DNA from: Rhodocaloribacter litoris
Lineage (GTDB): Bacteria; Bacteroidota; Rhodothermia; Rhodothermales; ISCAR-4553
DNA length: 64,000 nucleotides
Direction: 5' to 3'
NCBI RefSeq assembly: GCF_011682235.2
Contig: NZ_CP076718.1
Coordinates: 3,396,400-3,460,399, forward strand
Part shown: piece after piece, positions 39,979 to 50,905 of the stretch
Numbering within the stretch: position 1 is the stretch's first letter
How the letters are laid out: every line of letters begins with the position of its first letter
The notes under the pieces: generated by a model
What the model was told of the DNA's origin: nothing
Database searches by the model: none
What the model saw: the letters and a program-made list of their open reading frames with translations, nothing else
Translations under genes and position numbers: made by a program

Positions 39979-42900
39979 TCAGGGTGTTTCGGCCGGCCGG
40001 GGAACGGGCCGGTCGCTGCCGTTCCCCGACAGTTCGGATACCGGCAGCGGCGCTTTGCCGTCGACCGGCTGCCCGGCTTCGGGCGTCTCCGGTCGATGCC
40101 CGAAGAGGGTGCCCAGGCGTATTTCCAGCGAGTCGAAGACCGAATACATCACGGGGACGATCACGAGGGTCAGGAACGTGGCGAAGGTCAGCCCGCTGAT
40201 GATGGCCGTGCCCATCGGTCCCCAGAACTGGGTGTTTTCCGAGCCGAGCTGGAAGTCGGGGTCGAGGTCGGTCAGCAGCCCCACGAAGTCGACGTTGATG
40301 CCGAAGGTGAGGGGGACCAGCCCGATGATCGTGGTCAGCGCCGTCAGCAGCACCGGGCGCAGGCGCGTGGCGCCGGCCTCGATGATGGCGTCGTGCTTGG
40401 AGAGGCCCCGGTCACGCAGCTGCATCGTGTAGTCCACGAGCACGATGCTGTTGTTGACCACGATGCCGGCCAGCGAGATCACCCCGATGAAGGTCATCAG
40501 GCCGAAGGGGGTGCGCGTCAGGATCAGCCCGAGCATGACGCCGATGAGGCTCAGGCCCGTGGCCACCATGATGATGAAGGGAGAGCTGACGTGGTTGAAC
40601 TGGGCCACCATGATCAGGAAGATCAGCGCGCCGCCGATCATGAGCACCACGGTCAGGAAGCCGAAGCTCTCCTGCTGTTCCTCGTTCTCGCCGGTGTAGG
40701 CGAGTTCGTAGCCGGGCGGCAGGTTCTGCTCGTAGTCGGCCAGGTAGGCCTGGACTTGCTGCAGGATGGCCTGCCCGTTGTAGCCGGGGGCCGCGTTGCC
40801 GGAGACGGTGGCCACGCGCGCGAGGTCGAGCCGGGTGATCGAGCCGAGGCCGCCGGTCATCTCCAGGTCGGCTACGGCCACGAGCGGGATCTGCTGGCCT
40901 TCGTGGAGGATCGTCAGGTTGCGCAGGCTCTCCAGGCTGGCCCGGTCGGCCTCACGGAGGCGCACCGTGATGTCGTACTCGTCCTCCCCTGTGCGGTACT
41001 TGCTGGCCTCGATGCCGTTGATGGCCGCCCGCACCGTCGAGGCGATCTGCGAGGTGTTCAGGCCGAAGCGGGCGGCCCGCTCCCGGTCGATGACCACCTT
41101 CATCTCCGGCCGGCCCGTGTTCAGGTTGTCCGTCACGTCGACCAGGCCGGGGATGCGGCCCGTCTCCGACGCTTCCACGAGCATCCGGCGGATCTCCTTC
41201 GTGATGCGCACGATCTGGTCGAAGTCGTCCCCGGAGATCTCGATGTTGACGGGGGCGCCGGTGGGCGGGCCGGCATCGTCCTGGTCGAACTCGATCGTGA
41301 CGCCGGGGATACCCTGGAGCTGGGCCCGGAGCTTGGCGAGCGTGTTCTGGCTGGATTCCGCCCGGTCCTTGTAATCGACGATGTTGAGCGTCATGCGGGA
41401 GCGCTCGGGGCTGGCCGCGCCACCGCCGAACATGGCGTCGCCGCCCACGCCCACGTTCACGAGCAGGTTCTTGATGTTCGCCTTGACCTCCGGGTTCTCG
41501 TCGAGGAGCCGGTTGATGCGGTCTTCCAGGGTGAGGGCCACCCGGTTCGAGGCCTCGAGGTTCATGCCGAGCGGGCCTTCGGCCGTGATCATGACCTGGC
41601 GCGGATCCGTCGTCGGGAAGAACTCGACCCCCGTGGGAGCCAGGGCATACATGATGACGATGGCGAAAAGCCCGCCCAGGGTGCCGTTGAGCAGGCGCGC
41701 GCGGTTGTCCGTCAGGATCAGGTAGCGACGGCCCTTCCGGTTGAAGAGCATCCCGAGCAGCCCCACGCCGACGATCACCAGCGGGAGGATGAGCAGCTCG
41801 GCGATGGTCGTGAGGGCGACCTCGCGCGGGCTCAGGTACATCAGGCTCAGGATGACGAGCACCACGGCGCCGAAGATCAGGCCGGCCTTGACGCTGCTCT
41901 TGCCGCCGAGGAAGAGGCTCTCGAGCGTGTGGACGAAGATACCCAGGAGGCCGAGCACGAGCAGCAAGCCGCCCGGCGCCAGGAGGATCAGCCCCGCCAT
42001 CGAGCCGGCGGCCGAGGCGACGAGCCCGCCCAGGGCCAGCAGCACTACGCCCAGCGTGAGGCTGCCCAGGGCGAACGTGTTACGCAGCAACGCCCGGCGC
42101 GGCGTGTAGTCCCGCTGGAGCATCCAGTCCAGGAAGCGACGGTAACGGGCCACCAGAGCCGGCAGGCCCGAGCGCACGAACCGGTCTGCGATGGGCTTGA
42201 AGGCCCGCGTGTGCAGCAGGTAGAGCACCGGGATGGCGACCGAGAGCACCAGCAGCGTCCGCCAGTTGGCAAAGCCGAGCACCATCGCCAGCAGCACCAT
42301 CACCACGGCGGCGACGAACTTCGTCGTGCGGGGCAACGGGGCACGCTCCTCGTCCTCCAGCTTCACGAAGATGCCGGTGATAACCGGGTTGATGACGATC
42401 GCGACGAAGAGCGAGCACGAGAGCGTCACGATGAGCGTCAGCGGCATGTAGGACATGAACTCGCCGATGATGCCGGGCCAGAAAAGCATCGGCACGAAGA
42501 CGGCGACCGTGGTGGCCGTCGAGGCGACGACGGCTCCGCCCACCTCGGCCGTGGCCAGGCGGGCCGCCTCGAACCGCGTGTGGCCTTCCTCCCGGTACCG
42601 GTAGATGTTCTCCACGATCACGATCGCGTTGTCGACGAGCATGCCGAGCGCGATGATCAGGCTGAACAGGATGACGAAGTTGAGCGTGTAGCCGAGCGCC
42701 TGCAGCACGATGAACGAGATGAACATCGAGAGCGGGATGGCGATGCCCACCAGCGTGGCGTTGCGCACGCCCAGGAAGAACAGCAGCACGGAGATCACGA
42801 AGATCAGCCCGCTGATGATGTTGTTCTCCAGGTCCTTGATCAGGTCGCGCACGAACTCGCTCTGATCCCCCGTGATGACGATCTGCGTGCCGCTGGGGAA

Positions 42901-43875
42901 GGGGAACGTGTCCAGTTTCTGCTGCACGGCCTCGACCGTCTCGAGGATGTTCTCCCCCGAGCGCTTCTTGACGTTCAGGCTGATGACCTGCACGGCGCCC
43001 GTCTTCTCGTCAGGGAGCCGGATCAGGTGCCCGTCCTCGTTCTCGCGCTGGAGTTCGCGCAGGCGGGCGTAACTCTCACGTTCCTTGAATCCGAAGACGA
43101 CCTCGGCCACGTCGCGTACGTAGACCGGCGTGCCGCCCGGGGCGTCGAGGACCAGGTTCTCGATCTCGGCAGGATCGCTGAACTCGCCGTCGACGCGCAC
43201 CAGGTAGTTGAGGCGGTCCACGTCCACCGAGCCGCCGGGCAGGTTGGTGTTCTCGTTGCGGATCGTCTCGACGAGGTCGTTGAAGGTCAGGTTGTAGCCC
43301 TGGAGGGCCTTGAGGTCCACGTTGACCTGTACCTCGCGCTCGAGCCCGCCGATGAGGTCCACCTCGAGCACACTGGGGATGCTCTCCAGCTCGTCCTGCA
43401 GATCCTCGGCCACCTCCTTGAGACGGGCCAGCGAATAGGTGGCGCCCAGGTTGATCGTCAGGATGGGAAACTCCTCGAAGTTGATCTCGCTGACGATCGG
43501 CTCTTCCGCATCGGTGGGCAGTTCCGGCTTGGCGATGTCCACCTTGTCCCGCACCTTCTGAAAGGCATCGTCCATCGAGACGTCCGGGTCGAACTCGACG
43601 ATGATGGTCGAGACGCCCTCGGTGGAGGTGGAGCGGATCTCCTGGATGCCATTGATGCTCTGAAGCTCCTGTTCGATCTTCTGGGTGATGAGCGACTCGA
43701 TGTCGCTCGGGCTCGCACCCGGGTAGAGCGTGGTGACGACGATGTTCGGGACCTCGATCGAAGGCTGGGCTTCTTTGGGGATCGTCAGGTAGCTGTAGAG
43801 CCCGCCGATGATCAGGATCACCGTCAGCACCATGACGGCGGTGCGGTATTTGATCGCGGTGTCGGTGATTTTCAT
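39979..43875 (-). CDS. RND efflux pump inner-membrane subunit with extra transmembrane helices
   Basis: 1298-residue proton-driven pump of the AcrB/MdtB superfamily, normally about 1030-1050 residues. The N-terminal helix (AVMVLTVILIIGGLYSYL), periplasmic porter domains, DNAIVIVENI in TM4 with the proton-relay aspartates and a C-terminal LLTALTTIIGLVPL are intact. Around residues 510-745, between the two halves, lie about five hydrophobic helices beyond the usual count (VAAVVMVLLAMVLGFA; LLILPLVIVGVGLLGMLF and others). The start at 43875 matches the first helix. An inserted tnpB element separates it from the adaptor gene of the same operon. Confidence 0.92.
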   Translation of the reverse strand: MKITDTAIKYRTAVMVLTVILIIGGLYSYLTIPKEAQPSIEVPNIVVTTLYPGASPSDIESLITQKIEQELQSINGIQEIRSTSTEGVSTIIVEFDPDVSMDDAFQKVRDKVDIAKPELPTDAEEPIVSEINFEEFPILTINLGATYSLARLKEVAEDLQDELESIPSVLEVDLIGGLEREVQVNVDLKALQGYNLTFNDLVETIRNENTNLPGGSVDVDRLNYLVRVDGEFSDPAEIENLVLDAPGGTPVYVRDVAEVVFGFKERESYARLRELQRENEDGHLIRLPDEKTGAVQVISLNVKKRSGENILETVEAVQQKLDTFPFPSGTQIVITGDQSEFVRDLIKDLENNIISGLIFVISVLLFFLGVRNATLVGIAIPLSMFISFIVLQALGYTLNFVILFSLIIALGMLVDNAIVIVENIYRYREEGHTRFEAARLATAEVGGAVVASTATTVAVFVPMLFWPGIIGEFMSYMPLTLIVTLSCSLFVAIVINPVITGIFVKLEDEERAPLPRTTKFVAAVVMVLLAMVLGFANWRTLLVLSVAIPVLYLLHTRAFKPIADRFVRSGLPALVARYRRFLDWMLQRDYTPRRALLRNTFALGSLTLGVVLLALGGLVASAAGSMAGLILLAPGGLLLVLGLLGIFVHTLESLFLGGKSSVKAGLIFGAVVLVILSLMYLSPREVALTTIAELLILPLVIVGVGLLGMLFNRKGRRYLILTDNRARLLNGTLGGLFAIVIMYALAPTGVEFFPTTDPRQVMITAEGPLGMNLEASNRVALTLEDRINRLLDENPEVKANIKNLLVNVGVGGDAMFGGGAASPERSRMTLNIVDYKDRAESSQNTLAKLRAQLQGIPGVTIEFDQDDAGPPTGAPVNIEISGDDFDQIVRITKEIRRMLVEASETGRIPGLVDVTDNLNTGRPEMKVVIDRERAARFGLNTSQIASTVRAAINGIEASKYRTGEDEYDITVRLREADRASLESLRNLTILHEGQQIPLVAVADLEMTGGLGSITRLDLARVATVSGNAAPGYNGQAILQQVQAYLADYEQNLPPGYELAYTGENEEQQESFGFLTVVLMIGGALIFLIMVAQFNHVSSPFIIMVATGLSLIGVMLGLILTRTPFGLMTFIGVISLAGIVVNNSIVLVDYTMQLRDRGLSKHDAIIEAGATRLRPVLLTALTTIIGLVPLTFGINVDFVGLLTDLDPDFQLGSENTQFWGPMGTAIISGLTFATFLTLVIVPVMYSVFDSLEIRLGTLFGHRPETPEAGQPVDGKAPLPVSELSGNGSDRPVPRPAETP

Positions 43876-44011: not shown

Positions 44012-45166
44012 ATGCAGACGCTGACAATCAAATGCAAGCCGATTCTCTCCGACGAGGAACGCGGGGCGATCGACGCCACGATGGAGGCGTTCGCCGCCGC
44101 GTGCAATGACGCCATCCGCGTCGGGCGCGAGATGGGCACCACGTCGAACGTGCGTATCCACCACGCCTGCTACAAAGACCTGCGAGCCAATCACGGGCTT
44201 ACCGCCAACCTCGCCGTGCGTGCCATCGCCCGGGCGGCGGGCATCCTGAAAGTCAGGAAGCGCAGGCGTTCGACGGTTCGCCCGACGAGCATCGACTACG
44301 ACGCCCGCATCTTCTCCTTCCGCGAAGCCGACTGGACGGTCAGCCTTTCCACTATAAGCGGGAGGATTCGCGTTCCCATCCGCGTCGGAGACTACCAGAA
44401 GCAGCTTCTCAGCGGAAGGAAGCCCAAGAGCGCCGTCGTCTGGAAAACGCGGCAGAACGAGTACTACATCGGCATCCACGTGGACGTCGAAGCACCCCCG
44501 CCCGGCTTTGAAGAAAAGCATGGGACGCATGACGCGTCCCGGTGGATCGGTGTTGATCTGGGTATCGTCAACATCGCCACGCTGGATGACGGTACGGCAT
44601 TCAGCAGCGATACTCTGGAGGAAACCCGTACCCGGTACCATCGCACGAGGCGTTCGCTCCAGCGAAAAGGCACGAGAGGCGCACGGTGCGTCTTGAGACG
44701 GCTTTCGGGGAAGGAGCGGCGCTTCCAGCAGGCGGTCAACCACGAGATCAGCAGGCGCATCGTAGACAAAGCCGCCGCCGAAGGTAAAGGCGTTCGGCTC
44801 GAAGACCTGAGCGGGATCCGTGATCGGATGCGCGTCAGGAAGTCGCAGCGCCGCAGGCACCACGGTTGGGCGTTCTACGATCTGCGATCCAAGATCGAGT
44901 ACAAGTGCGCTCTTGCCGGCGTGCCTTTCGAGATGGTTGATCCCCGCTACACTTCTCGCCGGTGCCCCGTCTGCGGACATACCGAGAAGGCCAATCGCAA
45001 GAGCCAGAGCGAATTTCGCTGTCGCTCTTGCGGGTTGGAAGCGCACGCCGACATGATCGGCGCGATCAATATCTCCCTCGGGGGCGCTGTCAACCGTCCC
45101 GAAGTAGCGCTCAGGACGTTCGGCCGATTGGACGATTGGACGCGCCACGCGTCCAGACGCGTCTAG
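44012..45166 (+). CDS. tnpB: RNA-guided nuclease TnpB
   Basis: 384-residue TnpB/OrfB protein, ancestor type of Cas12. The split RuvC nuclease is intact: D182 in WIGVDLGIVN, E264 in VRLEDLSGI and D347 in HADMIGAINI. The zinc finger has CPVC (318-321) and CRSC (337-340). Length is normal. It is read opposite to the efflux operon it is inserted in. It should use a right-end RNA as guide scaffold. Confidence 0.93.
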   Translation: MQTLTIKCKPILSDEERGAIDATMEAFAAACNDAIRVGREMGTTSNVRIHHACYKDLRANHGLTANLAVRAIARAAGILKVRKRRRSTVRPTSIDYDARIFSFREADWTVSLSTISGRIRVPIRVGDYQKQLLSGRKPKSAVVWKTRQNEYYIGIHVDVEAPPPGFEEKHGTHDASRWIGVDLGIVNIATLDDGTAFSSDTLEETRTRYHRTRRSLQRKGTRGARCVLRRLSGKERRFQQAVNHEISRRIVDKAAAEGKGVRLEDLSGIRDRMRVRKSQRRRHHGWAFYDLRSKIEYKCALAGVPFEMVDPRYTSRRCPVCGHTEKANRKSQSEFRCRSCGLEAHADMIGAINISLGGAVNRPEVALRTFGRLDDWTRHASRRV

Positions 45167-45312: not shown

Positions 45313-46464
45313 TCAGCGGGCGGCCAGGCTCGAGTCCCGGCGGACGACCTCGACGGCGTCGCCCTCGGTCACTTTCGTCTGGCCGACGACGATGACCTCG
45401 TCGCCCGGCTCGAGGCCTTCCTCGACGACGACCCGGCCGCCGTAGGAGGGGCCGAGCGTGACCGTGCGGCGCCGGGCCACCCGTTGCGCTTCCTCCTGCT
45501 CGACGACGTACATGGTCTGGCCGTTTTCGTCACGAAGCACGGCCGTCTGGGGAACCACAAGCCGGTTTTCGTAGGTGGCCCGCGTCAGGTAGACCTCGGC
45601 AATCATTTCGGGCTTGAGGCGACCGTCCCGGTTGTCGAGTTCGATCTCGATGCGGAAGGTGCGGTTCTGCGGGTTGATGACCCGTCCGGCGAACGTGACC
45701 CGGGCCGGGCGACGGGCCATGCCGTAGGCCTTGAAGCCGACCTCGACGGGCGTGCCGGCTTCGATGTCGTTCGCGTAGCGCTCGGGCACGCCGGCGACGA
45801 CCTTCACCCGGTCCGTGTTCACGAGGCGGACGACGGGCGTGCCGGGCATGACCTGCTCGCCCACCTCGACCAGGTGGGCTTCGACGGTGCCCGCGAACGG
45901 CGCCCTGATCCGGGTCTGGCGGAGCTGCTCCTCTGCCTGGCTGAGGGCGGCCCGGGCCTGGGCCAGCTGGGCCTTGGCCTGGTTGCGTTGCGTGCGCACG
46001 TTCTCGAACTCGATGGCGCTGATGATCGAGTCCCGGTAGAGCGGCTCCTGGCGGCGGAAGGTGTCCTCGGCCAACTCATACTGTGCCTGGGCCGCTTCCA
46101 CCTGCGCCCGTGCCTGTTCCACGGCGGCCCGGGCCAGCTCGGCGTCCAGTTCGGCGACCACCGTGCCCTGGCGCACGGCCTGGCCCAGCGGGGCCAGCGA
46201 GAGGATCGTGCCGGCCGTCTCGGCCGAGAGCGTGGCATCGAAGGCCGTCTCGACGGCGCCGGTCAGCTCGACGATCTCGGTGAACGAGGCCGGCGCCAGC
46301 ACGAGCGTCTCGACGCGGACGGTGCGTTTGCCGGGCAGCGGGGCGGCGGCTTCTTCGGCGGCGCTGGCGTCTTCACTTCTGGCACAGCCGGAGAGCACCG
46401 GCCCCAGGGCCAGCAGGCCCGCAAGCAGCAGAGGTGTGGATCTATGGAGCATCGTGATCTTCAT
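45313..46464 (-). CDS. RND efflux periplasmic adaptor (membrane fusion) lipoprotein
   Basis: 383-residue HlyD/AcrA-type protein that links pump and outer-membrane channel. The signal peptide ends in a lipobox LSGC. A lipoyl/barrel-sandwich half (AETAGTILSLAPLGQAV), a helical hairpin (residues about 95-165, AQAQYELAEDTFRRQEPLYRDS) and the second lipoyl half (IRAPFAGTVEAHLVEVGEQV) follow, then beta-barrel and membrane-proximal domains. The start is 32 bp past the TolC stop and its own stop is 40 bp from the tnpB element's right end. Confidence 0.93.
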   Translation of the reverse strand: MKITMLHRSTPLLLAGLLALGPVLSGCARSEDASAAEEAAAPLPGKRTVRVETLVLAPASFTEIVELTGAVETAFDATLSAETAGTILSLAPLGQAVRQGTVVAELDAELARAAVEQARAQVEAAQAQYELAEDTFRRQEPLYRDSIISAIEFENVRTQRNQAKAQLAQARAALSQAEEQLRQTRIRAPFAGTVEAHLVEVGEQVMPGTPVVRLVNTDRVKVVAGVPERYANDIEAGTPVEVGFKAYGMARRPARVTFAGRVINPQNRTFRIEIELDNRDGRLKPEMIAEVYLTRATYENRLVVPQTAVLRDENGQTMYVVEQEEAQRVARRRTVTLGPSYGGRVVVEEGLEPGDEVIVVGQTKVTEGDAVEVVRRDSSLAAR

Positions 46465-46496
46465 GTTCGTTGCCGGATTGCGCGCCACGGGCGCGT

Positions 46497-48125
46497 TCAG
46501 TTGCGTGTTTCGGTGAGGTTGAAGCCGGGGAGCCCCTCCCGGTCCGGCAGACCGACGGCCGCTTCGAAGGCGGCCCGGGCCCCGAGCAGGTCGTGCATGG
46601 CCTGCAGGTAGTTGAGGCGGGTCTGGTCGAGTTGCTCGGAAGCCTCGCGTACCTCCAGCGGGCTGGCAACGCCTTCCTGCAGGCGGGCCAGGGCATAGTC
46701 GTAGTTGAGCTCGGCCCGGTCCACGTTCCGGCGCTGCGCCTCGATACGTTGCCGGGCGGCCTCCAGGTTGCGAAGCGCCTGTTCCACCTCCAGCTTCACC
46801 TGCTGGACCAGCTCGTCGTACTGCAGGCGGGCCTGGCTCACGGCGATCTTGCGCTGCTGCACCTGCTGGCGCCGCTGGAAGCCGTCGAAGAGGGTCCACG
46901 AAAGCCGGAAGCCGACGTTGACGTTCCAGTCCCAGTAGGCATCGCTGAAGAAGTCGTTGCGCTGCGTGGTGAAGCGGAACGGGTCGTCCGGGTCCGAGAG
47001 CACGACCAGGCGGTTGTCCGGAACGTTACCGAGGTAACCGATGCTGGCAAAGGCGTCGAGTGTCGGGAAATACTGGGCCCGCGTCGCCTGCTCCTGCACC
47101 TTTTGCAGCTCCACGTTGATCCATGCCTGTTCCACGTCCGGCCGGCGTTCGAGCGCCAGCGCGAGGGCGCGTTCGGCCGAGATCTGGATGAACTGGCCGG
47201 GATCTTCGGCTTCCAGGCGGCCGCGCAGCGAGACCGGCTGCTCGATCGGGAGGCCGAGGAGCAGCTTGAGGTCGTCGGTGGCCTGTGCCGCCGCGTTCTC
47301 GGCCTGCACGAGCTGGGTTTCCAGGTTGGCCAGCTCCACCTCGGTGCTGAGGCGGTCGAACTTGGGCGTAACCCCCTGGGCGACGCGCTTGCCCACTTCC
47401 TCCAGGGTCCGGCTCGTGCGGGCCACGCTCTGACGCGCCACCTCGACGCGGGCCTGGGCCAGCAACGCCTGGTAAAAAGCCTGTTTCACCCGGGCGATGA
47501 GCAGCTGCTCCTCCCGTTCCAGCCGGCGTTCCGTGAAGGGTTCGAGGTATTTGTCGGCGCCCGCGGCGCCCCAGATGGCCCGTCCGTCGAAGATCTTCTG
47601 GGTGATGCTGATGGTGTTGCTGAACTGGTTCGGCACCGAGAAGGGGTTGCCGCCGCCGGTCAGGGTGGCGCCCGCCTCGTCCAGCCCGGCCTGCCGGCGG
47701 GAAAAGAACTCGGCCAGCGAGATCGGGTTGGTGGCCGGGTCGTCGTCCGTGCGGGCCTGCTCGTTAAAGGCCAGCCAGTCGATGAAGGCAAACGAGTTGA
47801 ACAGGCTGCCGGCCTGGCTGCCCGCAAAGGGGTTGGCCGATTCGAGGTTTCGCGTATAGCTGGAATTCAGGGCAATCTGGGGCAAGAGCTGCCCCCATCC
47901 CTCTTTGACCTGTGCACCGGCGTTCTTGAGATCCAGCCGGGTTCGCTGGAGAGCATAGTTGTTCGCCAGGGCAACCTGAATCGCTTCGTCCAGGGTCAGG
48001 CTGATCGGGGCGGCGGAGGGGGTAACCTGGGCCCGCGCAGGCAGGGCAAGGAGCACGGCCAGCAGCAACACCGCAAGACCGCCGTGCCGCAAACAACCTT
48101 TGAAAGCGAGATCTATCCGGTTCAT
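46497..48125 (-). CDS. TolC-family outer-membrane channel
   Basis: 542-residue outer-membrane efflux protein with a signal peptide (LAVLLLAVLLALPARAQ) and two OEP repeats: SLTLDEAIQVALANNYALQ and a later ALERRPDVEQAWINVEL, separated by long alpha-helical coiled coils. Length is slightly greater than TolC (about 490) because of a loop near residues 60-180. It begins 2 bp after the TetR stop and is part of one transcript with regulator, adaptor and pump genes. Confidence 0.92.
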   Translation of the reverse strand: MNRIDLAFKGCLRHGGLAVLLLAVLLALPARAQVTPSAAPISLTLDEAIQVALANNYALQRTRLDLKNAGAQVKEGWGQLLPQIALNSSYTRNLESANPFAGSQAGSLFNSFAFIDWLAFNEQARTDDDPATNPISLAEFFSRRQAGLDEAGATLTGGGNPFSVPNQFSNTISITQKIFDGRAIWGAAGADKYLEPFTERRLEREEQLLIARVKQAFYQALLAQARVEVARQSVARTSRTLEEVGKRVAQGVTPKFDRLSTEVELANLETQLVQAENAAAQATDDLKLLLGLPIEQPVSLRGRLEAEDPGQFIQISAERALALALERRPDVEQAWINVELQKVQEQATRAQYFPTLDAFASIGYLGNVPDNRLVVLSDPDDPFRFTTQRNDFFSDAYWDWNVNVGFRLSWTLFDGFQRRQQVQQRKIAVSQARLQYDELVQQVKLEVEQALRNLEAARQRIEAQRRNVDRAELNYDYALARLQEGVASPLEVREASEQLDQTRLNYLQAMHDLLGARAAFEAAVGLPDREGLPGFNLTETRN

Positions 48126-48127
48126 GT

Positions 48128-48841
48128 TCAGCTTGTCGGTCGTTCTGGGGAGGGCCGGACACCGGCCGGATCGGCCAGCAGCCCGTCGAAAAGCATCGTC
48201 GTCAGAAAGCGCGCCATCGACTGTGCCGTCTCCTCGACGGGACAGCAGGACGGATCCTCCCGGCACTCGAGCATCATGTGCATCTGGCAACCGTTGATGT
48301 TGCCCATGATCATGTGCGCGACGGCCTGCGCCGGCAGCGGCTTGAGTTCGCCGCGGCGCATGGCCGTCTCCAGGGGCGGTACCAGCGCTGCGTTGATGCG
48401 CTCCTTCTGCCGCAGGAAGTAGGCCGTCTTCTCCGGGTCGTCGCCAAAGATCATGCGGTGGGCTTCCTTCATCAGAATCTTGAACAGATCCTGCCGGTCG
48501 AGGAAGAACTGGAAGCAGGACGCGATGAACTGCTCGAACAGCTCGCGGGTCGGATACTGCCTGGTGCGTTCCGGCGAGAACGAGCGCACGATCAGGTGGT
48601 AAAGGTCGTCGTAGATCTCGTCGAAGATGGCGAAGAGGAGATCCTCCTTCCCCCCGGTGAAATAGTTGTAGAGCGTGCCTTTGCCGAACTCGGCCCGCTG
48701 GGCGATTTCATCGACGGTTGCCTGCAGATAGCCTTTTTCGGCGAAGACGGCCCGGGCCGCCTCGAGCATGGCGCGCCGTCGCATGAGCCGTTCTCGCTCG
48801 CGACGCGGCAGGGCGGTTTCGGATACGTCCGGTTCGTACAT
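48128..48841 (-). CDS. TetR-family regulator of the efflux operon
   Basis: 237-residue repressor. The N-terminal HTH is clear (AARAVFAEKGYLQATVDEIAQRAEFGKGTLYNYF). The ligand domain ends in a cysteine-rich stretch (NGCQMHMMLEC, then DPSCCP) with four cysteines and a histidine. The position at the head of the tolC-adaptor-pump operon fits AcrR-like autorepression by pump substrates. The ATG at 48841 begins MYEPDVSE; an upstream in-frame start would add a basic extension of doubtful value. Palindromes with GGTC/GACC half-sites lie upstream. Confidence 0.9.
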   Translation of the reverse strand: MYEPDVSETALPRRERERLMRRRAMLEAARAVFAEKGYLQATVDEIAQRAEFGKGTLYNYFTGGKEDLLFAIFDEIYDDLYHLIVRSFSPERTRQYPTRELFEQFIASCFQFFLDRQDLFKILMKEAHRMIFGDDPEKTAYFLRQKERINAALVPPLETAMRRGELKPLPAQAVAHMIMGNINGCQMHMMLECREDPSCCPVEETAQSMARFLTTMLFDGLLADPAGVRPSPERPTS

Positions 48842-48912
48842 CGGATCAGGGTTCAACGTGCGGGAAGGTGAGCGTCGTCTGCCAGGATACACCCGTACCC
48901 GTGACAACCCTC

Positions 48913-48943
48913 GGTCATGACCTTCGACCGGCGGAGGCCGGTC
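48913..48943. promoter_or_regulatory. Two palindromes in the tetR leader, candidate repressor sites
   Basis: GGTCATGACC (48913-48922) and GACCGGC-GGAG-GCCGGTC (48926-48943) are both perfect inverted repeats. They share the GACC/GGTC half-site with the palindrome at 49012. They lie between the proposed tetR promoter and its start codon. Confidence 0.5.
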
Positions 48944-48967
48944 TCCATGTCGTATTCAAAGAAAGAA

Positions 48968-48996
48968 TTCTTAATGTGCAAACGGTTTGTAAACAA
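48968..48996 (-). promoter_or_regulatory. Candidate promoter of the tetR-tolC-MFP-RND operon
   Basis: On the minus strand TTGTTT (48996-48991), 17 bp, TAAGAA (48973-48968). The surrounding stretch 48950-49030 is AT-rich, unlike its neighbours. The 356-bp gap 48842-49197 contains this promoter, three palindromes and the promoter of the rightward gene, and no other gene. Confidence 0.4.
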
Positions 48997-49011
48997 TGAT
49001 TTATAAAATTA

Positions 49012-49021
49012 TGACCGGTCA
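49012..49021. promoter_or_regulatory. TGACCGGTCA palindrome, candidate TetR operator
   Basis: Perfect 10-bp palindrome, extended to TGACCGGTCAGTCA, resembling operators of many TetR-family repressors. It is 16 bp upstream of the proposed -35 box of the efflux operon and in the upstream region of the divergent gene at 49198, so it may serve both. Confidence 0.55.
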
Positions 49022-49112
49022 GTCACTTTTCGACTGCTACGTCATTTCATCGAAATGGATGCACACCGCGTGTTAAGAAATCGGAAAGAAGGACGGGCGT
49101 GTCGAGGCCGGT

Positions 49113-49197: not shown

Positions 49198-50100
49198 ATG
49201 AAGTACGTGTTTTCGTTTCGCTGCCTTCTGGTGCTTTTGCTGATCGGAGTGACCGGTGCGCCGGCCCATGGTGGTCCGGCGGAAGCCTGGGATACGGTCA
49301 AGCGTACCTTCAAGGTGCGGCCCGGCGGCACCCTGTTCATCGATCTCGATCACGGCAACGTCACGGTCGAGGTGGGCCGCGACGATCTCGTCCACATCGA
49401 GGTCGAGCGCATCGTGGAAGCGGACAGCGAGGAAGAAGCCAAGCGCATCCTGGACCGGCACGAGCTTGATTTTTTGCAGGACGGCAACAATGTGCATTTC
49501 CGCTCGCGTTTCGAGGACCAGCGGTGGACGCGCAAGCTCTGGGGGCGTAGCACGCGGTTCAAAATGGAGGTGCGGGTCAAGGTGCCGGAGCGTTTTAACG
49601 TCGACTTCAGCAACGGGGCGGGTAACCTTGTCATCGCGGACGTGGTGGGTCGGGTAGCGGGGCGCACCGGCGCCGGCAACGTGCGCATCGGCACCGTGCG
49701 CGGGCCGGTCGAGGTCAGTTCCGGAGCCGGCAACATCGAGGTAGATGGGGCGGTAGGCCGGGTCGAGGTCAGCTCCGGGGCCGGCAACATCACCCTGCGG
49801 CGTATCGAGGGACAGATCCTTGCGCACACGGGGGCCGGCAACATCACGGCCCAGATCACCAGCCAGCCGGAGGATGCCTCCCGGCTTGAATCCGGCGCCG
49901 GCAACGTGACGGTGTACCTCGACCGGGACGTAGGGGTCTATGTCGATGCCGTGGCGGGACTGGGGTCGGCCGAATGTGAATATGGCCTCGAGATCGAAGG
50001 GAAATGGATGAAGAAGTCCTTCGGAGGGCGTGTCAACGGCGGGGGACCCGAGCTGACGCTGCGCTCCGGGGTTGGCAACGTGGCGCTCAAGAAGATGTGA
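49198..50100 (+). CDS. Secreted DUF4097-like (toastrack) protein with GAGN repeats
   Basis: 300-residue exported protein. A signal peptide (LLVLLLIGVTGAPAHG) precedes a beta-rich domain. From about residue 138 a motif of the form (S/T/N)GAGN(I/V/L) recurs seven times at 12-28 residue spacing, the last as SGVGN; this periodic pattern predicts a beta-helix-like or DUF4097 toastrack structure. It is probably periplasmic or surface exposed. Its gene is divergent from the efflux operon and ends at a strong terminator, so it is monocistronic. Function is unknown; DUF4097 proteins are often stress- or envelope-linked. Confidence 0.78.
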   Translation: MKYVFSFRCLLVLLLIGVTGAPAHGGPAEAWDTVKRTFKVRPGGTLFIDLDHGNVTVEVGRDDLVHIEVERIVEADSEEEAKRILDRHELDFLQDGNNVHFRSRFEDQRWTRKLWGRSTRFKMEVRVKVPERFNVDFSNGAGNLVIADVVGRVAGRTGAGNVRIGTVRGPVEVSSGAGNIEVDGAVGRVEVSSGAGNITLRRIEGQILAHTGAGNITAQITSQPEDASRLESGAGNVTVYLDRDVGVYVDAVAGLGSAECEYGLEIEGKWMKKSFGGRVNGGGPELTLRSGVGNVALKKM

Positions 50101-50220: not shown

Positions 50221-50260
50221 TTGACAAAAACTTGAAACTTTGCTTGCTTAACACTGTTAA
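50221..50260 (+). promoter_or_regulatory. Promoter with embedded palindrome for the beta-oxidation operon
   Basis: TTGACA (50221-50226) is a perfect -35 box; the -10 is weak (TTGCTT at 50244, 17 bp spacing). TTAACACTGTTAA (50248-50260) is a perfect 6-1-6 palindrome just after it, 12 bp before the regulator start codon. A TetR-family protein bound there would block transcription. Confidence 0.6.
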
Positions 50261-50272
50261 CCCCGGTGTGTC

Positions 50273-50905
50273 ATGGAGCCTTCTGCACAGGATAGCGGCG
50301 ATCTCCGGCGGCGGATCCTGGATACGGCCCGGTGCCTGCTCGTCGCCGACGGGTACAAGCGCCTGTCGATGCGCAAGATCGCGCGGGCCATCGGATACAG
50401 CGCCACGAGCATCTATCTCCATTTCGAGAGCAAGGATGCGCTGGTGCACGCCCTGATCGAGGAGGGCATGGAACGCCTGTACGGGGCCTTTCGGCGCGTG
50501 TGGGCCGCCCACCCCGACGATCCGTATGCCCGGCTGGAAGCGCTTTGCCGCTGTTACGTCGATTTCGGGCTGGAGCACCCGGAATATTACGAGATCATGT
50601 ACCTGCTGCACCCGGAGCAGATGGCCCGCTTTCCTGCCGAGAAGTATCGCCGGGCTCGTCGCAACCTGGAGCTCCTCGTCGAGACGCTGGCCGAGGGGGC
50701 GGAGCGCGGGGTGTTTGTGCCGGAGGATCCGCTCCGGGCGGCCAGTGCCATCTGGGCGTCGTTGCACGGGGTCGTCTCGCTGTTGCTCTCTCGCCGTGTG
50801 GACGTGCGGGTGGAGCCCCGGCAACTGGTCGATGCCACCATCCGGCAGGTGCTGCGCGGCTATGCAGTCACCCCGCTCGACGTAGACCTACCGGCTTCCG
50901 GTTAA
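50273..50905 (+). CDS. TetR-family regulator of the beta-oxidation operon
   Basis: 210-residue repressor with a typical HTH (MRKIARAIGYSATSIYLHFESKDAL) and a C-terminal ligand domain of the TetR_C 'WHG' kind (AIWASLHGVVSLL). As first gene before fadD, it probably senses acyl-CoA and releases DNA, like FadR of Gram-positive bacteria and thermophiles. The ATG at 50273 directly follows the palindrome. Confidence 0.88.
   Translation: MEPSAQDSGDLRRRILDTARCLLVADGYKRLSMRKIARAIGYSATSIYLHFESKDALVHALIEEGMERLYGAFRRVWAAHPDDPYARLEALCRCYVDFGLEHPEYYEIMYLLHPEQMARFPAEKYRRARRNLELLVETLAEGAERGVFVPEDPLRAASAIWASLHGVVSLLLSRRVDVRVEPRQLVDATIRQVLRGYAVTPLDVDLPASG

Follow-up and report, generated by a model that had tools for sequence, protein, structure and literature searches.

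Which DNA sequence controls the efflux operon headed by a TetR-family gene in Rhodocaloribacter litoris? A sequence-only reading of the window, by which we mean the whole 64-kb stretch of DNA analysed here, had drawn attention to three palindromes ahead of this operon and had taken their shared GACC/GGTC half-site as a sign that one regulator, probably the TetR protein, binds several sites there and possibly also controls the divergent gene. Comparison of the region with its counterparts in related genomes points instead to a pair of tandem sites, one of which contains one of the three palindromes.

The efflux operon and the palindrome cluster

The first gene of the operon encodes the TetR-family regulator (48128..48841, minus strand; PF00440, E 2.7e-15) and is separated by a gap of 2 bp from the gene for a TolC-like outer membrane efflux protein (46497..48125, minus strand; PF02321, E 9.1e-63). 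Genes for an HlyD-like membrane fusion protein (45313..46485, minus strand; PF16576, E 2.2e-25) and an AcrB-type RND pump (39979..43875, minus strand, with an approximate start; PF00873, E 1.9e-196) follow, so that a regulator with a TetR_N domain is found adjoining TolC, HlyD, and RND genes. An IS605-type TnpB gene (44012-45166, plus strand; PF07282 and PF01385) separates hlyD from the pump gene and runs on the opposite strand, and the pump gene may therefore be severed from the operon promoter. The plus strand carries the divergent DUF4097 gene (49198..50100, plus strand; PF13349, E 2.8e-7), described earlier as a GAGN-repeat gene, followed by a second TetR gene and fatty-acid genes. This second regulator, TetR2 (TetR_C_33, 50273-50905), stands ahead of an acyl-CoA ligase gene and beta-oxidation genes, and a palindrome just upstream of it, TTAACACTGTTAA at 50248-50260, is a candidate operator of the fatty-acid regulator. 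The order tetR, DUF4097 gene, TetR2, ligase recurs in the nearest relative, genome G148 (L128, 148-5100), so that the gene neighbourhood is a conserved one in this family.

The window contains all three palindromes at exactly the reported positions: P1, GGTCATGACC, at 48913-48922; P2, GACCGGC-GGAG-GCCGGTC, at 48926-48943; and P3, TGACCGGTCA, at 49012-49021. Counting perfect inverted repeats that contain GACC/GGTC, with arms of at least 5 and spacers of 0-6, we find 18 in the 64-kb window, and this site is the sole place in it where three fall within 110 bp. Under this cluster definition, which was made post hoc, a cluster of at least three repeats also appears in 4 of the 300 dinucleotide-shuffled versions of the window, so that the cluster is mildly unusual and alone constitutes weak evidence.

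Tandem TGAC-N6-GTCA sites and their conservation

TetR orthologs (E<=1e-20) occur in 83 of the 244 genomes of the class, and the 86 tetR loci were oriented by tblastn; 85 of them have upstream sequence, the remaining one (L092) being cut. Within 500 bp upstream of tetR, the 14-bp pattern TGAC-N6-GTCA is found at 78 of the 85 loci, compared with 0/82 far-upstream and 1/85 downstream control windows. With the same half-sites, every other spacer gives at most 12/85, the maximum belonging to spacer 2, which is the type of the P3 10-mer. The pattern is absent from this 500-bp range at seven of the 85 loci (L079, L087, L088, L090, L091, L093, and L094). In the window, predicted operator C, TGACTGACCGGTCA (49012..49025, minus strand), matches at 8/8 positions and contains P3; its distance from the assigned tetR start, 171-184 bp upstream, is greater than in most orthologs. 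Predicted operator B, TGACGTAGCAGTCG (49031..49044, minus strand), starts 19 bp upstream of C and matches at 7/8 positions, with one mismatch; it falls beyond 49021, outside the range considered earlier, and had gone unreported. A palindromic operator candidate upstream of the regulator's own gene is thus conserved together with the regulator.

The spacing between the two sites is itself conserved. At 72/85 loci the site is accompanied by another copy whose start is exactly 19 bp upstream, when at least 13 of the 15 fixed positions of the pair are required to match, and the 19-bp pair appears in the controls at 0/85, 0/82, and 0/425 shuffles. At these 72 loci, weaker copies (at least 6/8 positions) occupy the next 19-bp step downstream in 40% and upstream in 21%, with mean-match z values against other offsets of 13.6 and 8.6, respectively, and at two loci (L042 and L049) three exact copies follow one another in 19-bp steps. 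The window itself shows just the two central sites (49012-49025 and 49031-49044) in recognisable form, and a further 6/8 match at 49091-49104 does not keep to the 19-bp register; in G148 the pair is spaced by 20, not 19. Judged from the aligned loci, the tandem register is unusually strict, with most ortholog loci of the class keeping to 19 bp. Beyond the class, among 10 loci of relatives whose best tblastn segments are 24.7-40.4% identical, two have an exact TGAC-N6-GTCA, and one of these (L130) has a 7/8 copy 19 bp on. A protein search of the genome contigs yielded one distant relative only.

Across whole genomes, 61 of the 244 in the class contain the tandem pattern and 0/244 its reversed control. 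For 57 of these 61, it lies upstream of a TetR ortholog, including one genome (G220) in which the gene is cut by a contig edge; two cases at contig edges were inspected individually. The places in the other four (G015, G116, G119, and G138) come without a TetR ortholog match and look like chance. One genome (G211) has a single extra tandem place elsewhere. In the window's own 4.5-Mb genome this locus is the sole exact tandem match, and single TGAC-N6-GTCA sites number 18 versus 16 for the control, which is background level, so the regulator looks local. A genome-wide TetR regulon was rejected on the same grounds, with single sites at background and no second exact tandem place.

A tolC relative lies downstream of tetR at 80/86 loci, a DUF4097 gene lies upstream of it at 2/86 (the window and G148), and the upstream neighbour is co-directional with tetR at 45 of 70 tandem loci by a longest-ORF heuristic, the other two of the 72 being too short to judge. 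For these reasons we assign the array to the tetR-efflux operon and not to a shared divergent promoter. The suggested co-control of the divergent DUF4097 gene finds no support here, given that this gene is the upstream neighbour at only those two loci and the array persists with many other neighbours; incidental repression of DUF4097 may occur in this one family.

A promoter-like element, TGCATC (49063-49058)-N16-CGTA (49041-49038), spans 49038..49063 on the minus strand and overlaps operator B, and the aligned ortholog upstream regions also reveal a conserved CTTAACA (49071..49077, minus strand) upstream of it. CTTAACA also occurs in TTAACACTGTTAA, the palindrome ahead of TetR2. Both halves of the element (TGMATC-like and CGTA/CGTT) are found at 37/72 tandem loci, one alone at 7/72, and neither at 28/72. 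SigW-like ECF promoters have the form TGAAAC-N16-CGTA, with a −35 of TGAA(A/T)C, a −10 of CGTA, and a 16-nt spacer. By analogy, TGCATC-N16-CGTA resembles an ECF-type −35/−10 pair, from which we infer the position of the promoter. A sigma-70 promoter scan returned none. The extended form TTAAC-N8-TGMATC-N16-CGTA was also considered as a general promoter class and rejected, with one exact copy in the genome and near-matches at about control level.

All 78 motif-bearing loci have the recognition helix KGT[LIV]YNY. Three loci without the motif, all of family f14 (L088, L090, and L091), have KGTLYLYF together with a TGAATA/TATTCA-type palindrome upstream, imperfect in L091; other motif-less loci have KGTIYNHV, KGTVYLHF, or SQTLYSYF. 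The exception is L079, which keeps KGTLYNYF without the motif and breaks the correlation between helix and operator. On this comparison, helix and operator changed together in one lineage, and the f14 loci are possibly a natural specificity switch; as a single lineage event, the change is suggestive only. Most TetR proteins of the class also have one extra residue between the recognition helix and helix 4 (YFxGGKE versus the usual YFxSKE), which is absent in the two f21 genomes and in the 10 more distant relatives.

Explanations for the site

We consider it very probable that the region is the autoregulatory operator of the TetR repressor heading a tetR-tolC-hlyD-RND operon, acting through the tandem predicted sites B and C. 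The sites, their register, their conservation, and their linkage to tetR-tolC are directly established; we infer binding of this TetR at B and C, repression, cooperativity, and an inducer. In the proposed mechanism, two 14-bp TGAC-N6-GTCA operators, head-to-tail with 19 bp between their starts, would each receive one ligand-free TetR dimer upstream of tetR. The bound dimers would keep the operon off by stopping RNA polymerase at the promoter or shortly beyond it, until a pump substrate or other small molecule bound to TetR and caused the dimers to leave, whereupon tetR and the pump would be expressed. This is most likely an ordinary kind of bacterial TetR switch, now well defined. A more elaborate array for the efflux TetR of the class is possible, though we regard it as doubtful: as many as four TGAC-N6-GTCA sites would follow one another every 19 bp, the central pair near-invariant and the outer two degenerate, overlying a dedicated ECF-type promoter. 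If it holds, repression would hinge on side-by-side packing of TetR dimers, and the induction signal would come from a stress sigma factor.

That all three palindromes serve as operators of one TetR over 110 bp, through looping or multiple occupancy and with co-control of the DUF4097 gene, seems very unlikely to us. The GACC/GGTC half-site is indeed common to all three, they form the sole such cluster in the window, with its counterpart in 4 of 300 shuffles, and DUF4097 is divergent in both the window and G148. P1 and P2, however, each occur in 1/85 ortholog upstream regions, namely the window itself, whereas the operator pair is kept in G148, which lacks both; the P3 10-mer occurs in 2/85. 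Their geometry is wrong as well: the half-sites of P1 are everted (GGTCA-TGACC rather than TGACC-GGTCA), and P2 has GAC-N12-GTC where the operator has GAC-N6-GTC. The rarity of DUF4097 as a neighbour (2/86 loci) also speaks against this explanation. P1 and P2 were judged to lie outside the operator and were rejected as operators because of their conservation and half-site geometry. When genomes retaining the operon were searched for loss of the palindromes, such loss was found for P1 and P2 and not for the operator. The cluster as a whole is, by these comparisons, no functional unit, and only P3 is part of a conserved site. A single regulator for all three palindromes on the strength of their shared half-site finds no support, whereas the idea of TetR acting at several sites survives in altered form, as two predicted TGAC/GTCA operators that track TetR and exclude P1 and P2.

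P1 and P2 both fall in the long leader that separates operator C from the tetR start and that, compared by eye, has no evident likeness to the leader of G148. P2, and perhaps P1, might fold in the RNA and so influence translation or transcript stability without involving the operators. We hold this to be unlikely. In the predicted fold, P2 does pair into a G+C-rich stem of 7 bp capped by a 4-nt loop, but the leader taken as a whole is no more stably folded than its shuffles (z -0.29; 70/200 shuffles as good) and was rejected as an unusually structured RNA; moreover, P2 is not conserved. As a terminator, P2 was rejected, with no terminator-like site found there. As a repeated genomic element it was likewise rejected: the leader (48842-49045) matches itself only, and P2-like sequences with at most one mismatch number 26 across the genome versus 43 for the reversed control pattern, so that P2 is not an enriched motif.

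The least probable explanation, in our estimation, is that the tandem sites are bound by another TetR paralog, such as TetR2 at 50273, or by several TGAC-type TetR proteins. TetR2 lies ≈1.2 kb away, and overlapping sites of SbtR and TTHB023 in Thermus, as described in the available text of PMC7022988, offer a precedent; against this, across genomes the array goes with the efflux TetR and its tolC, and TetR2 has a candidate palindrome of its own.

Overall, autoregulation through the tandem sites is the reading we prefer. The earlier analysis had identified the promoter region correctly and the regulator probably so; two of its palindromes do not hold up, and it had missed the second site. Short half-sites shared within one genome can mislead, as two of three palindromes fail once relatives are compared. 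One exact operator now replaces a loose palindrome cluster and lets efflux control in these bacteria be readily predicted, and the change of helix from YNY to YLY with that of half-site from TGAC to TGAATA may provide a small natural series for studying TetR specificity. The modestly interesting parts are the conserved 19-bp register and the promoter-like motif.

Relation to known TetR systems

NalC, TtgR, MtrR, and AcrR are local TetR-family repressors tied to RND pumps, and their operators have other sequences. Among PDB sequences, the window TetR matches NalC (8KE8) best (E 7.2e-10), and TtgR and MtrR also match. None of the NCBIfam models scores above its cut-off against the window TetR (MtrR reaches 38.1 bits versus a cut-off of 280), and we therefore do not file it as AcrR, MtrR, or TtgR. 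In QacR of Staphylococcus aureus, two dimers occupy neighbouring or overlapping sites at an efflux promoter; both its operator sequence and its pump type differ from those of the window. Among the titles and abstracts listed on TetR in Rhodothermus, on TetR and efflux in Salinibacter, and on tandem-operator TetR proteins of efflux systems, none concerned this operon.

Likenesses in operator sequence come from Thermus thermophilus. One is TTHB023 (PfmR). This TetR-family protein has a related palindromic operator, with two sites at each of two promoters; in the available text, the outer bases of its consensus are different and it is tied to fatty-acid genes, not efflux (PMC7022988). The other is SbtR, for which the available text describes a 14-bp palindromic operator, TGACYRNNYRGTCA, bound with nanomolar affinity, and lists TGACTGACCGGTCA among its genomic sites (PMC4948773). 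Operator C is identical to that genomic site letter for letter and fits TGACYRNNYRGTCA, whereas operator B, TGACGTAGCAGTCG, mismatches this consensus at inner positions and at the last base (PMC4948773). The word "tandem" is absent from the main text of that paper, and the available text does not place SbtR at an RND efflux operon (PMC4948773). The helix-turn-helix of the window TetR resembles that of SbtR (TTHA0167, T. thermophilus HB8, PDB 3VUQ) over ≈55 residues (E 7.5e-9), and the match to 3VUQ covers only residues 21-80, the DNA-binding domain, falling short of whole-protein orthology. Although we do not file it as SbtR, the window TetR is, to judge from its predicted sites, like SbtR in its choice of operator.
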